This document shows, piece by piece, positions 3,900 to 23,756 of a stretch of 64,000 nt of DNA. Position 1 is the stretch's first letter. Each line of letters begins with the position of its first letter. The stretch spans positions 1 to 64,000 of the forward strand of contig NZ_BSDE01000001.1 of NCBI RefSeq assembly GCF_030268085.1, given 5' to 3'. Origin of the DNA: Geothrix limicola. Its GTDB lineage: Bacteria; Acidobacteriota; Holophagae; Holophagales; Holophagaceae. Under the pieces are notes generated by a model. That model was not told the origin of the DNA. It ran no database searches and was given only the letters and a program-made list of their open reading frames with translations. Position numbers and translations under genes: made by a program.

Positions 3900-6509
3900 A
3901 TGAAGGCAGCCCACGTGATCTCCCTCATTCTGGCGCTCGGCGCCCTCGCGGTGCGCGCGGCGATGCCTGCGCACGAGGGCGCTGCGGGTCCGACTGCTGA
4001 AAGCGCTGCGCGCCAAGCTCCTGAGAGCGCTCCGCGCCAGGCCGCCGTCGGCGCGGCGCACCGGGGCGGCACCCTGGTGGCGACGGGGCAGACCGTGCGC
4101 CCCGCGGGTCAGGTGATTGCTTTTTCAGGCCGGCCGCTGGACGTGGCCCTCACTTCTGACGGGAAGGTCCTGCTCGTCAAGACCGACGAGGGCGTGCTCG
4201 TGGTGGACGCGGTGACCTGGACCCAGCGCCAGAGCCTGCCCTATGTCGCCAAGGACGGCGCCTCCATGCACGGCCTTGCCGTGGCCCGTGACGGCCGGTC
4301 GGCCTGGCTGAGCGTGGGGAACGGCCTGCTGGTGGAACTGCGCCGGGACGGTGATACCTGGGCCTGGGGCCGGCGTATTCCGCTGCCGTCCCGCGACAAG
4401 GGCTCGGCCTATCCCTGTGGTGTGGCCTTGGCCGCGGATGGGCGGACGGCCCTGGTGGCCCTCTCCCGCGCCAACAGCCTGGCCGTGGTGGATCTGGCGG
4501 AGGCCCGTGTGGCCGGGGAGATCCCCGTGGGCGTCGCGCCTTACGGCGTGGCGATCACGCCCGATGGCCGGAGGGCCTTCGTGTCCAACTGGGGTGGTCG
4601 TCGCCCTGGAGCCGGAGCGCGCACCATGCTTTCTGCGGGCACTCCCGTCCAGGTGGACGACCGGGGCCTGCCCACCAGCGGCACGGTCTCCCAGGTGGAC
4701 CTCGTCGCGCGCGTCGTGACGGCTGAAGTGGCGGTGGGCCTGCATCCCTCCCAGGTCCTGCTGGACGCGGAAAGCCAGCGGATCTTCGTGGCCAATGCCA
4801 ATTCAGACACCGTGTCCATCCTGGATGCGGCCGCCTTCACCGTGCGCGACACGGTGTCGCTTCGTCCCGATCCGGCCCTGCCGTTCGGAAGCCTGCCCAA
4901 TGCGCTGGCCCTCACGCCCGATGGGCGCCGCTTGTTGGTGGCCAATGGCGGAAACAACGCCGTGGGTGTGGTGGAGCTCCAGCCCAAGGCGAAGGTTGCG
5001 GGCTTCCTTCCCACGGGCTGGTTTCCGGCCGCCTTGGCGACGGATGGCCGCTCGCTCTTCATCGCCAACGCGAAGGGGGATGGCTCCCGCCTGGGCGAGC
5101 CGGGACACCGCAAGTGGGCCGTGGGCCTGCAGCGGGGCACGCTCCAGAAGGTGGTGCTGCCGAGTGCGGATGAACTGAAGGCCTACACCGGCGAGGTCTC
5201 GGCCCTGAGCCTCGTGCCCGAGGCGTTGCGGGCCCTCGAGCGGGGGCGCGCGGGTGCGAAGCCCGTGCCCGTCCCAGCCCGCGCGGGCGCACCTTCGGTG
5301 TTCAAGCACGTGGTCTACGTGCTCAAGGAGAACCGCACCTACGATCAGGTGTTCGGTGATCTGAAGCAGGGCAACGGCGATCCGAACCTGTGCATCTACG
5401 GCCGCGAGGTGACGCCGAACCACCACGCCCTGGCCGAGAGCTTCGTGCTGCTCGACAACTACTACTGCAACGGCATCGTCTCCGCCGACGGGCACCAGTG
5501 GGCCACCCAGGGCATCACCAGCGACTACCAGGAGAAGGCCTTCGGCGAGTGGACCCGCAGCTACGACTTCGGCACCGATCCCCTGGCCTTCGCGCCCACG
5601 CCCTTCCTGTGGGATCACGCCCTGATCCGTGGATTGTCCTTTCGCAACTACGGTGAATTCGACTTCCCCACCATCGAGCCCGCCACAGCCAAGTGGGATG
5701 ATTTCCATGACGCGAAGCAGCGGCCCCGCTTCATCCAGAACATCCCGCTCGAGGCCCTGCGGACCTACACTTCGCCCACCTTCCCAGGCTGGGAGATGCG
5801 CATCCCGGACCAGGTCCGCGTGGATGCCTTCCTGAAGGAATTCCGCGAAAGCGAGGCCAGCGGCCAGTGGCCCAGCCTCATCCTCGTCTACCTGCCCCAG
5901 GACCACACCCGGGGCGCCACGCCGGGCGCGCCGACGCCGCGGGCCCACCTGGCGGACAACGACCTCGCCCTGGGGCGGCTGGTGGAGGCCATTTCGAAGA
6001 GCCGCTTCTGGAAGGACACCTGCATCTTCGTGAACGAGGATGATCCCCAGGATGGCTTCGATCACGTGGACGGCCACCGTTCGCTCTGCCTCGTCATCAG
6101 CCCCTACACGAAGCGGGGCCGCGTGATCTCGCGGTTCTACAACCAGGGTTCCGTGCTGCACACCATGGAGCGGATGCTGGGCCTGCCGCCCATGAACCAG
6201 TTGGACGGCGCCGCCCCCACCATGGAGGCCTGCTTCACGGGGAAGCCCGATTTCAGGCCCTTTGCGGCCCTTCCGGCCCGCGTGCCCCTGGACGAGAAGA
6301 ACCCCGCCGGGACGCCCATCGGCATGGACTTCAGCCGTCCGGATCGCATCGATGACAACGCGCTGAACCACGTGCTGTGGGTGGCGGAGAAGGGGGCCAT
6401 CCCCTATCCGTCGGCCTTTAGCGGCGCCCACGGCAAGGGGCTGAAGCGCCTGAGCCTGAGGCTCGATGCGCGGCCCACCCTCGATGACGATGGCGATGAC
6501 GATGACTGA
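3900..6509 (+). CDS. Secreted YVTN beta-propeller protein fused to a phosphoesterase (PF04185-type) domain
   Basis: An 869-residue exported protein. The ATG at 3900 follows GAGG at 3890-3893 and opens a signal peptide (residues 1 to about 22). A short Ala/Glu/Arg/Gln-rich linker follows. Roughly residues 40-440 are propeller blades with repeated ITPDGRRAFVSNWGG- and LTPDGRRLLVANGG-like strands. From about residue 466 a phosphoesterase domain begins with VVYVLKENRTYDQVFGDL, the N-terminal signature of the acid phosphatase/phospholipase C-like family. Later metal-ligand-like stretches are NEDDPQDGFDHVDGH. The C-terminus is a run of Asp and Gly. The fusion is a known bacterial architecture; the substrate is unknown. 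It lies between sugar-activation genes and two glycosidases. Confidence 0.75.
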   Translation: MKAAHVISLILALGALAVRAAMPAHEGAAGPTAESAARQAPESAPRQAAVGAAHRGGTLVATGQTVRPAGQVIAFSGRPLDVALTSDGKVLLVKTDEGVLVVDAVTWTQRQSLPYVAKDGASMHGLAVARDGRSAWLSVGNGLLVELRRDGDTWAWGRRIPLPSRDKGSAYPCGVALAADGRTALVALSRANSLAVVDLAEARVAGEIPVGVAPYGVAITPDGRRAFVSNWGGRRPGAGARTMLSAGTPVQVDDRGLPTSGTVSQVDLVARVVTAEVAVGLHPSQVLLDAESQRIFVANANSDTVSILDAAAFTVRDTVSLRPDPALPFGSLPNALALTPDGRRLLVANGGNNAVGVVELQPKAKVAGFLPTGWFPAALATDGRSLFIANAKGDGSRLGEPGHRKWAVGLQRGTLQKVVLPSADELKAYTGEVSALSLVPEALRALERGRAGAKPVPVPARAGAPSVFKHVVYVLKENRTYDQVFGDLKQGNGDPNLCIYGREVTPNHHALAESFVLLDNYYCNGIVSADGHQWATQGITSDYQEKAFGEWTRSYDFGTDPLAFAPTPFLWDHALIRGLSFRNYGEFDFPTIEPATAKWDDFHDAKQRPRFIQNIPLEALRTYTSPTFPGWEMRIPDQVRVDAFLKEFRESEASGQWPSLILVYLPQDHTRGATPGAPTPRAHLADNDLALGRLVEAISKSRFWKDTCIFVNEDDPQDGFDHVDGHRSLCLVISPYTKRGRVISRFYNQGSVLHTMERMLGLPPMNQLDGAAPTMEACFTGKPDFRPFAALPARVPLDEKNPAGTPIGMDFSRPDRIDDNALNHVLWVAEKGAIPYPSAFSGAHGKGLKRLSLRLDARPTLDDDGDDDD

Positions 6510-6546
6510 TACCACCCCTTCCCATCCATCCCGAGGAGTCGAAGCC

Positions 6547-8322
6547 ATGCGGCGAACCCCTTTGCATCAAGCCTTGCGGGGCCTGGCCCTCGCGTCCATG
6601 GCCCTGCTGGGCCGGGCCCAGGACCTGATTCCGCAGCCGGCCCACTACCAGGCCGGGGCGGGGCGCTTCGCCCTGGGACCGGGCACGCGCCTCGTGGCCT
6701 CGGGCGCGGCGCGCCCCATCGCCGAGCGTCTTCAGGCCGATCTGAGGCCCGCCACGGGCCTCCCCCTCCCGGTTCAGGACAAGGGCGGGCGCGACGCCAT
6801 CCAACTGGCCCTCGATCCCGACGCCGCCTCCCTGGGGCCCGAGGGCTATCGGTTGCGGGCCACAGGAGATCGCGTCGAGATCCGCGCCTTCCGTCCCGCG
6901 GGACTCTTCTACGGGGTGCAGACCCTGCGACAGTTGCTGTCCAGCGAGGGCTTCCGCCAGGCCAAGGTGGAGGGCGCGACCTGGACCGTGCCGGCCTGCG
7001 ACATCGAAGATCAGCCGCGCTTCTCATGGCGCGGCAGCCACCTCGACGTGGGCCGCCACTTCATGCCCAAGGACTTCATCAAGAAGCACCTGGACCTGAT
7101 GGCCCTGCACAAGCTCAACGTCTTCCACTGGCACCTCACCGAAGACCAGGGCTGGCGCCTGGAGATCAAGAAGTATCCGAAGCTCACGGAGGTCGGCGCC
7201 TGGCGCAAGGAGACGGTGCTGCCCATGTACATGAAGGCCGACCGCGCCAGTCAGCGCCTCTTCGACGGCATGCCCCACGGCGGCTTCTACACCCAGGCGG
7301 ACGTGAAGGAGATCGTCGCCTACGCGGCGGACCGCTTCATCACCGTGGTGCCCGAGATCGAGATGCCGGGCCACAGCACGGCGGCCATCGCGGCCTATCC
7401 GGAGCTGGGGAACTTCCCCGACCGCAAGGTGGAGGTGGGCACCTATTGGGGCGTATTCCCATCGGTCTACGGCGTGGAGGACGCCAACATCCAGTTCCTG
7501 AAGGATGTGCTGGACGAGGTGATGGCGCTCTTCCCCTCGACCTACATCCACATCGGCGGGGACGAGTGCCCCAAGTCCGAATGGGCCCGAAGCGAACGTG
7601 CGCTGGCGCGCATGAAGAAGGAGGGCCTGGTGCCCGCCGCCACGACGCTGGAGGACCTGCAGATCTACCGCAACGGGAAGGGGGAGCGCGCCGAGCATCC
7701 TGCCCTCCACAAGCTGCAGGCCTGGTTCATCCGCCAGTTCGATGACTACCTGTCCGCCAAGGAGCGGCGCCTCATGGGCTGGTCCGAGATCCTGGAAGGA
7801 GGCTTCATCTCCGCAAGCCCGAAGGGTGAGCGGGAGCGCCCTGCGGGGCAGGGCGCGATAGATGGAGGCCTGGCACCCAAGGCGGCGGTGATGAGCTGGT
7901 TCGGTGAAGCGGCGGGCATCGAGGCCGCCAAGGCCTCCCATGACGTCGTGATGGCGCCGGAAAGCCACACCTACTTCGACTACTACGCGGCCAAGGGTGC
8001 CGAACCGCAGGCCATCGGCGGCTTTACGCCCCTGGAGAAGGTCTACGCCTACGACCCCATGCCTGCGGGGCTGGACGCCGCCCAGCAGGCCCACGTCCTC
8101 GGTGCCCAGGGCCAACTCTGGACCGAGTACATGGCTACGCCGGCCAAGGTGGAATTCATGGCATGGCCCCGCCTCTCGGCCCTGGCCGAAGTGGTGTGGA
8201 GCCCGAAGGCGACCCGCGATTTCACGGATTTCCAGAAGCGCCTGAAGACGCACCTGAAGCGTCTGGATGCCCTTGCCGTGGGCTACCACCCGCTGGACAA
8301 GCCCCAATCCTTCCCGCGCTGA
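6547..8322 (+). CDS. Secreted beta-N-acetylhexosaminidase (GH20) with an in-frame repeat insertion
   Basis: A 591-residue GH20 enzyme with a signal peptide ending near RAQD. It starts at the ATG at 6547, with GAGGAG eight bases upstream. The N-terminal GH20b-like domain (about 25-150) precedes the catalytic barrel, which starts around FSWRGSHLDVGRHF. The catalytic pair Asp339-Glu340 sits in HIGGDECPKSEW, and substrate-binding WHLTEDQGWRLEI and WTEYMAT segments are present. It removes terminal GlcNAc or GalNAc by substrate-assisted catalysis, probably in the periplasm or outside. At residues about 418-440 the expected EILEGGLAP-type sequence is split by a 22-codon insertion bounded by GGAGGC direct repeats (see the repeat at 7798-7869). 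Whether the loop affects activity is unknown. Confidence 0.9.
   Translation: MRRTPLHQALRGLALASMALLGRAQDLIPQPAHYQAGAGRFALGPGTRLVASGAARPIAERLQADLRPATGLPLPVQDKGGRDAIQLALDPDAASLGPEGYRLRATGDRVEIRAFRPAGLFYGVQTLRQLLSSEGFRQAKVEGATWTVPACDIEDQPRFSWRGSHLDVGRHFMPKDFIKKHLDLMALHKLNVFHWHLTEDQGWRLEIKKYPKLTEVGAWRKETVLPMYMKADRASQRLFDGMPHGGFYTQADVKEIVAYAADRFITVVPEIEMPGHSTAAIAAYPELGNFPDRKVEVGTYWGVFPSVYGVEDANIQFLKDVLDEVMALFPSTYIHIGGDECPKSEWARSERALARMKKEGLVPAATTLEDLQIYRNGKGERAEHPALHKLQAWFIRQFDDYLSAKERRLMGWSEILEGGFISASPKGERERPAGQGAIDGGLAPKAAVMSWFGEAAGIEAAKASHDVVMAPESHTYFDYYAAKGAEPQAIGGFTPLEKVYAYDPMPAGLDAAQQAHVLGAQGQLWTEYMATPAKVEFMAWPRLSALAEVVWSPKATRDFTDFQKRLKTHLKRLDALAVGYHPLDKPQSFPR
7798..7869 (+). repeat. Palindromic element copy B, inserted in frame in the GH20 gene
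   Basis: GGAGGC occurs at 7798-7803 and again at 7864-7869, a spacing of 66 bases (22 codons). Between them is a hairpin with arms CGCCCTGC and GCAGGGCG around GGG. The hairpin is preceded by GAGCGGGAG and followed by CGATAGATGGAG. Near-inverted ends (CTTCATC and GATGGAG) close the element. The copy at 23625-23698 shares both flanks and the hairpin position, while its stem bases differ and still pair. Confidence 0.7.
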
Positions 8323-13278: not shown

Positions 13279-13355
13279 TGGTGCACCCGACTGGAATCGA
13301 ACCAGCGACCTTTGGCTTCGGAGGCCAACGCTCTATCCAACTGAGCTACGGGTAC
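13279..13355 (-). tRNA. tRNA-Arg (anticodon CCG)
   Basis: A 77-base cloverleaf on the minus strand. The acceptor stem GTACCCG pairs with CGGGTGC (one G-U), the D arm is GCTC/GAGC, and the anticodon stem TTGGC/GCCAA encloses CTCCGAA with CCG at positions 34-36. The variable loop is AGGTC, the T arm is GCTGG-TTCGATT-CCAGT, and the discriminator A is followed by an encoded CCA. It reads CGG codons, which are common in the genes here. Two copies of its 3' end lie downstream. Confidence 0.95.
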
Positions 13356-22873: not shown

Positions 22874-23598
22874 TGAACGCCGCGGACCGATTCGATCTGG
22901 GCGGCGGCGAACCCGTCATCACGCTGCGCGACGTGGCCAAGAGCTACTGGCGCGAGGACCTGGAAATCCCCGTCCTGCAGGGCATCGATCTGGAGATCCC
23001 CGTGGGTGCCTACATCGCCCTGATGGGTCCCTCCGGCAGCGGCAAGACCACCCTGCTGAACCTCGTGGCGGGCATCGACCGTCCCACAGGCGGTTCGCTC
23101 GAGGTCTGCGGCTATGACCTGAACGATCTGGACGACGATCAGCTGGCCTCCTGGCGCAATGCGCACGTGGGCTTCATCTTCCAGAACTACAACCTGGTGC
23201 CGGTGCTGAATGCCTTCGAGAACGTCGAGCTGCCCCTGCTGCTCACGGGGGCGGGCCGGGGCGAGCGCCGCGACCGGGTGGAGCAGGCGCTTTCACTGGT
23301 GAACCTGACGGACCGCATGCGGAACTACCCGCGACAGCTCAGCGGCGGCCAGGAACAGCGCGTCGCCATCGCGCGCGCCATCGTGACGGATCCCGACCTC
23401 CTGGTGGCCGACGAGCCCACGGGCGCCCTCGATGCGAAGAACGCCGAGGAAGTTCTGGCCCTGATGGCCCGGCTCAACACCGAGCTCGGCAAGACCATCG
23501 TCATGGTGACCCACGATCCAAAGGCGGCGCATCATGCGCGGCACCAGATCCACCTCGAGAAGGGTGTGCTGGACCGGACCGTCGAGGTGAACCGATGA
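22873..23598 (+). CDS. ABC transporter ATPase (MacB/LolD-type)
   Basis: A 241-residue nucleotide-binding protein. Walker A GPSGSGKT is at 52-59, the signature LSGGQ at 156-160 (followed by E where Q is usual), Walker B LLVADE near 176-181, and the switch His214. The LolD/MacB subgroup look ([34 protein letters not shown]) fits the FtsX-type permeases downstream. It starts at an ATG overlapping the adaptor stop. The last 58 bases of the gene (23541-23598) recur at 23699-23756 after a palindromic element. This separates the ATPase from the permease gene by 174 bases, where the sequence suggests an original gap of only 16. Confidence 0.93.
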
Positions 23599-23756
23599 GT
23601 CCACGTGCCGCGCGTGAGCATCATGGAGGCTCCACCTCCGCCGAGCCGCGGAGCGGCGAGCGGGAGCAGAGCGCGGTGCGCTCTGCGATCGGTGGAGGGC
23701 ACCAGATCCACCTCGAAAAGGGTGTGCTGGACCGGACAGTCGAGGTGAACCGATGA
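23595..23756 (+). pseudogene. 53-codon chimeric frame: repeat element fused to a duplicated ATPase tail
   Basis: An ATG at 23595 overlaps the ATPase stop (ATGA) and opens 53 codons. The first twelve resemble the ATPase segment before its tail (PRAAREHH compared with PKAAHHARH). Then come about 22 codons of element A, then the duplicated final ATPase codons ending TVEVNR. It could be translated by coupling, but I read it as a partial gene copy interrupted by the element rather than a functional gene. Confidence 0.6.
23625..23698 (+). repeat. Palindromic element copy A
   Basis: GGAGGC at 23625 opens the element and GGTGGAGG closes it, with CTCCACC and GGTGGAG as inverted ends. The central hairpin is CAGAGCGC-GGT-GCGCTCTG, preceded by GAGCGGGAG and followed by CGATCGGTGGAG. 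The copy in the GH20 gene (7798-7869) has the same flanks with a different but still paired stem. Read in frame, both give Gly-Glu-Arg-Glu in the middle and Ala-Ile-x-Gly-Gly at the end. Confidence 0.7.

Follow-up and report, generated by a model that had tools for sequence, protein, structure and literature searches.

A family of protein-compatible palindromic insertion elements in Geothrix with a predicted three-way-junction fold and an unusual insertion signature

The Rickettsia palindromic elements are about 150 bp in length (Ogata 2000, 2002, reviewed in PMC10969869). They are palindromic and dispersed, and they are found in frame in unrelated proteins, essential ones included, where they encode a recurring peptide (PMC10969869). 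The Geothrix element described here shares these properties. It differs in its length of about 65–80 bases, with a range of 60–83 bp among the sampled copies, in its predicted three-way junction with stems that run free in sequence, in its occurrence in another phylum, in being mostly intergenic and in the local direct and inverted duplications that accompany it. Mitochondrial double-hairpin or repetitive hairpin elements (Allomyces, sponges; PMC2800124) offer a second comparison because they also combine a pair of hairpins in a short mobile unit and also lie within structured-RNA genes. In the Geothrix element the two hairpins are the P2 and P3 arms, whose conserved GA/GA feet are seen in 107 distinct copies. 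Compared by description, the Geothrix element is set apart from the mitochondrial ones by being bacterial, by a third stem (P1) that closes the unit and by its conserved joints. The Allomyces elements are, moreover, said to be without flank duplications (PMC2800124), whereas these are present at about half of the Geothrix copies.

REP and REPIN sequences (PMC2817692, PMC3733652) are likewise GC-rich palindromes at many loci, arranged in inverted pairs and, at some sites, in tandem, and the P3 foot of the Geothrix element, GGGAG...CGAT, resembles that of Pseudomonas REPs (PMC2817692). The Geothrix element, however, has no fixed GT(A/G)G head, the columns in question being the covarying 3' strand of P2; its stems are variable, its predicted fold is a three-way junction and a Y1 transposase is absent from most of its carriers. 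Like the MITE of a DNA transposon, it is short, non-coding and non-autonomous with inverted terminal arms, but no parent transposon was found, its target duplications do not appear to be short and of fixed length, and the copies share their fold more than their sequence. The family is apparently undescribed: a literature search, with most subscription journals outside its reach, found no description of it, and no RNA or ribozyme family in Rfam 15 fits the element itself. It works like the Rickettsia palindromic and double-hairpin elements, yet is a separate family, set apart by their descriptions.

Two copies in the Geothrix limicola window

The window is a stretch of 64,000 nucleotides from G. 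limicola (contig NZ_BSDE01000001.1, positions 1 to 64,000), and coordinates given without a locus name refer to it. A first-pass annotation had placed two copies of a palindromic element here, with GGAGGC repeats and the flanks GAGCGGGAG and CGAT, and inspection of the sequence bears this out. Copy 1 is located at 7798–7869 and copy 2 at 23625–23699, both on the plus strand. With a covariance model rebuilt from 111 copies (R2; the first model was built from five), they score 78.2 and 77.4 bits, respectively, compared with 15.9 bits for the next best place in the window, indicating that the two copies are not chance matches. The window also contains a tRNA gene on the minus strand at 13282–13355 (Rfam match) that is unrelated to the element.

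Copy 1 lies in frame within a gene for a GH20 beta-hexosaminidase at 6466–8322 on the plus strand (start codon putative; Pfam PF00728, E = 4.6e-113, and PF02838). The GGAGGC at its 5' border (7798–7803, plus strand) occurs a second time at 7864–7869, and the orthologues have a single GGAGGC. The GH20 orthologues of two relatives have an empty site, reading GAAGGAGGC followed by CTGGCG and GAAGGCGGC followed by TTGGCG, and it follows that exactly 66 nt were gained after GGAGGC. This net gain of copy 1 over the orthologues corresponds to 7804–7869 and to 22 codons; the alignment that had been proposed as a check on the in-frame insertion therefore supports it, because the 22 codons are missing in both relatives. 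The insert is open and in frame, as an ordinary variable loop of the GH20 protein would also be. However, the orthologues are empty and the same element is found between genes and in unrelated proteins and RNAs, so we rule out this reading, whose probability is practically nil. We also considered programmed ribosome bypassing, of which T4 gene 60 is a case, because matched GGA GGC codons flank the GH20 insert. Bypassing over GGA...GGA seems superfluous, as the in-frame copies that we see are open and keep the frame. Plain readthrough of an in-frame copy, in GH20 or in DnaG, would be expected to yield a peptide such as SASEASGSAQGAR.

Copy 2 is intergenic, located after the stop codon (23596–23598) of an ABC ATPase gene (Pfam ABC_tran) and before the next gene (23773). 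The last codons and stop of the ATPase gene, at 23540–23598 on the plus strand, form the first copy of a 59-bp direct duplication identified in a repeat search. The second copy (23698–23756, plus strand) is 97% identical to the first and is flush with the 3' end of the element. A repeat search and an inverted-copy test identify GTGCCGCGCGTGA at 23605–23617 (plus strand) as an inverted copy of 23532–23544, a source segment that straddles the start point of the 59-bp duplication. Copy 2 has what we refer to below as the full duplication-type layout: ATPase end, inverted copy, element and second ATPase end. Both copies had been described as compatible with a protein frame. This holds for copy 2 insofar as its frame is open and contains Gly-Glu-Arg-Glu, but the copy lies outside any gene, beside the 59-bp duplication.

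Fold and covariation

In the covariance model, the element is a three-way junction in which conserved GA/GA and GA...GAT joints connect the stems P1, P2 and P3. The single central hairpin first proposed has to be replaced by this arrangement because P2 and the outer P1 also covary. In copy 1, the 5' strand of P1 (TTCATCT, 7804–7810, plus strand) is predicted to pair with AGATGGA at 7860–7866, in agreement with P1 covariation in 107 distinct copies. The P2 arm, CCGC-AA-GCCC-GAA-GGGT-GA-GCGG, occupies 7811–7833 (plus strand) and includes a tandem A/G internal loop; the P3 arm, GCGCCCTGC-GGG-GCAGGGCGC, occupies 7836–7856 (plus strand), with GA at 7834–7835 on one side and GAT at 7857–7859 on the other. 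The assignment of both arms is based on the predicted fold and on covariation. Folded alone, copy 2 gives a slightly different predicted P2 pairing.

Across the family, P1 has 7 bp, of which the outer pairs are mostly UCC/GGA in the main subtype and the inner pairs are free. P2 starts with CCGC/GCGG, continues through a tandem RA/GA mismatch and ends in a short stem of free sequence; J2/3 is GA, P3 has 6–9 bp of free sequence and J3/1 is mostly GAT. A second subtype has the borders GACGGGGCCCC...GGGGGTAGTCC. The upstream GGAG(GC) is a repeat of the P1 3' end, and the CTCC strand of P1 could therefore pair with either.

The stems are supported by extensive covariation. Paired cells make up 94.5% of the alignment of the 107 distinct copies compared with 72.3% in shuffled alignments, and 21 of the 25 base pairs have changed on both sides. 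Double-change cells number 484 versus 125 in shuffles, the covariation score is 0.466 versus 0.130, and shifting the structure by one to three columns abolishes the signal. P2 covaries as CCGC/GCGG, CCAC/GTGG, CTGC/GCAG, CCAA/TTGG and CGGC/GCCG. When copies are selected by P1 alone, 406 of 429 P3 pairs are Watson–Crick, demonstrating that the pairing is no artefact of the covariance model, and the P3 stem is perfectly paired in 38 of 56 copies. The P3 stems of the two window copies differ in sequence and each is fully paired, as originally reported.

The folded form is either one DNA strand or its RNA. Strand asymmetry was dropped as proof of RNA: G-U outnumbers A-C by 58 to 14 among matches chosen with an RNA model, and we discard this excess because those matches came from such a model. 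When copies were selected independently, the ratio fell to 10 to 3 in P3 and to 7 to 8 in P1.

The hairpin had also been suggested to be under selection. The stems are indeed paired and covarying, but template switching during replication can rewrite one arm from the other, and such events yield multi-base compensatory changes and maintain stems (PMC8794818). Because template switching alone can maintain hairpin stems, covariation by itself does not prove selection. The many perfect P3 stems are what would be expected if pairing were kept by mutation rather than by selection, and the inverted target copies beside the element resemble template-switch products. A purely mutational origin of the pairing would, however, leave unexplained both the conserved unpaired GA/GA and GA...GAT joints and the three-way arrangement kept across subtypes, and we regard it as possible but doubtful. 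The conserved unpaired joints argue that the fold is recognized by something.

Distribution and in-frame copies

Scanning the genome with a covariance model, as the first-pass annotation had recommended, does reveal further copies: the G. limicola genome (4.23 Mb, 20 contigs) has 26 at E ≤ 1.4e-5, and the first model gave 24 at E ≤ 1. All 37 of the Geothrix genomes searched contain copies, from 2 to 44 each by the first model. Among 297 Acidobacteriota genomes, searched with strict filters that make the counts lower bounds, 27 have copies, 24 of them Holophagaceae and three in one other family. The matches come from four Holophagaceae genera and two genera of the other family, and from nowhere else in the 297 genomes; some Holophagaceae genera (g16 and g19–g21) have few copies or none. 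In the other family, copies occur singly per genome, and two of the three are at group II introns: one is an insertion within an Rfam match to group II intron domain 1 (L069 1434–1671, genome G054), and one adjoins a group II intron match (L245, G091). Viral spread was rejected; there is one IMG/VR pattern match, and it is absent from the R1 search results at E ≤ 0.1.

In two genomes the element forms part of larger, near-identical repeats that extend over a few hundred bases (L097, L144, L145, L096; L078, L125, L134, L143). These larger repeats are often at contig ends, suggesting recent multiplication of a larger unit. Back-to-back inverted pairs of the element are also seen within a larger conserved repeat unit (L150 869–1009, L155 4074–4214, L075 227–367 and L092 2797–2937).

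The element is mostly intergenic, and genes are not its main habitat. A coding score applied to 102 sampled copies classifies five as coding in frame on both sides and none as frameshifted. In-frame sense copies occur in six protein families: GH20, DnaG, IspA (L073, Pfam-supported), an inositol-monophosphatase-like protein (L153), the tail of NuoM in two species and the linker of an ABC-F ATPase. The NuoM, ABC-F, IMPase and DnaG hosts are named by sequence recognition, without a family search, and are presumably these proteins. Nearly all of the in-frame copies read GGSxS... in one common frame.

The DnaG site shows both states. It is empty in 26 relatives, which read MGEGQPKYL or MGDGQPKYL (e.g. 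ATGGGCGAAGGCCAG), and filled in frame in four, which read MG-GGSTSASEASGSAQGARYGG-GQPKYL or a modified form. The net gain is 57 nt in three of the four filled relatives, with GAAGGC becoming GGAGGC...GGAGGC. In one dnaG copy (L255, G005), extra in-frame sequence breaks P1 and leaves the frame open; here the structure decays and the frame is kept. At GH20 and DnaG the GGAGGC border repeats match or nearly match the target. These 6-nt repeats may represent the ends of the element itself; long direct duplications are present at other sites.

The element had been likened to the Rickettsia palindromic elements as a protein-compatible insertion. The likeness stands in that it is inserted, dispersed and palindromic, occurs outside Rickettsiales and is found as in-frame sense copies in six protein families. 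It does not extend to size and fold, and the small number of copies that are coding in frame on both sides also limits it.

Target duplications and the route of insertion

Direct repeats flank 51 of 100 copies, compared with 6 of 405 control places taken from the same loci, with orthologous loci only partly collapsed in these counts. In the typical case the repeated segment is the terminal or initial 30–90 nt of a gene or tRNA, often extending to the stop or start codon, and the element sits between the intact end and the duplicate of that end. Examples include what we take, by recognition, to be the starts of miaB-like and queE-like genes, the end of a fliP-like gene, the start of a cupin gene and the ends of tRNAs. 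In the spacer between the element and the intact end, the target sequence that surrounds the insertion point is repeated in inverted orientation. This inverted copy extends across the junction in 10 of 15 duplication-type loci and is adjacent to it in the others, compared with 3 of 208 mismatched spacer–target pairs; it accounts for only part of the origin of the spacer.

Both states can be compared at the cupin gene behind manC across 30 Geothrix loci. The empty site reads AAGCCCTGGGGCTCC, and the filled site has the order leader-ATG-D-element-spacer-ATG-D-rest. The stretch from manC to the cupin gene also contains short tandem GACTGAA repeats (as in L223), whose number differs between species. 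The copy at this site is kept in at least eight species, and a comparison of 13 resident sequences reveals compensatory changes in five pairs. Such retention would be expected of a cis-acting RNA kept by the host for a local role, such as regulation or mRNA stability, with mobility being old. The hosts are, however, unrelated (glycosidase, primase, tRNA neighbours and a group II intron), many relatives are empty at the cupin site, one resident copy there (L215, G065) is without the P3 arm and P1 of the L255 DnaG copy is broken by its extra insertion. We hold a host-kept role to be improbable.

Incomplete tRNA copies (of the D-loop, T-arm or 5' end) that are split by the element adjoin intact tRNA genes (L107 about 5559–5780, L128 102–381, L100 3698–3933 and L071 about 1500–1721). 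Insertions within structured RNAs, namely these tRNA copies and group II intron domain 1, could reflect spread through RNA, with either reverse transcription or insertion at the RNA level, a route that has been suggested for the Allomyces double-hairpin elements. Spread of this kind would also fit the clean insertions, which have no duplication beyond the 6-nt border repeat, and a mild sense bias beside genes (37 ++ and 18 --). However, only 14 of 41 Geothrix genomes have the reverse transcriptase family PF00078, and several many-copy genomes are among those without it, which leads us to reject a group II intron or retron RT as an obligatory mover, and antisense copies relative to genes and tRNAs exist. 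We consider spread through RNA unlikely.

No dedicated transposase was identified for the element. A Y1 transposase of the RAYT or IS200/IS605 type might move it as a REP/REPIN-like element by cutting GGAG-type single-strand sites, either in trans or from a source since lost. Flanks included, the P3 arm reads G(C/T)GGGAG-stem-CGAT and is indeed similar to the GTGGGAG-stem-CGAT of Pseudomonas REPs (PMC2817692), and the 5' GGAG and 3' GGAG are both able to pair with the same internal CTCC, in the manner of a guide and cleavage site. On the other hand, the IS200/RAYT Y1 family PF01797 is absent from 36 of 41 Geothrix genomes, including four with 36–44 copies (G009, G006, G017 and G032), and the G. 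limicola genome has only a fragment. The G-T-A/G-G head is also variable, with P2 covarying through GCGG, GTGG, GCAG, TTGG and AGGG. Long direct and inverted duplications are unexpected of the Y1 transposase mechanism and count against it as well. RAYT/IS200 as the current mover is rejected because PF01797 is missing in most carriers, and we see little likelihood in the wider Y1 explanation. Two genomes (G020 and G063; L168–L180) have five to seven IS200-like Y1 transposase genes each, mostly identical, which is atypical for the genus.

The direct and inverted target duplications suggest that the element is inserted through template switching during replication or repair. A short match to its own end would allow a folded single strand to join an end that is broken or stalled. 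The polymerase would then switch template, copying the target backward and then forward again, such that the broken gene end would be recopied. The survivors would be insertions that leave genes functional, whether intergenic, in frame or with the gene end restored. As judged by sequence comparison, the element is dispersed, its stems covary around a conserved fold, it has inserted at identified sites (GH20, DnaG and the cupin gene), and its insertions into gene or tRNA ends bring a direct and an inverted copy of the target. We are evenly divided on whether the whole is best described as short, non-coding and non-autonomous insertion elements that form a family found mainly in Holophagaceae and that enter by template switching during replication or repair. 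A bolder proposal is that it represents a new kind of mobile element without a transposase of its own, in which a folded three-way-junction strand enters via host replication or repair and gene ends are recopied in direct and inverted form, allowing essential genes and tRNAs to survive. We think this possible, but lean against it.

The Geothrix element belongs to a real family of palindromic insertion elements that is protein-compatible and has a complex fold and an unusual insertion signature. It is the second example of a selfish palindrome that can enter essential proteins in frame, and it comes from a phylum distant from that of Rickettsia; here the in-frame insertions are accompanied by clean empty sites in close relatives. 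The family also allows selection and template switching to be distinguished as causes of stem covariation, and the dozens of insertions that are accompanied by target copies in both orientations offer material for working out how a palindrome can be inserted without a transposase.
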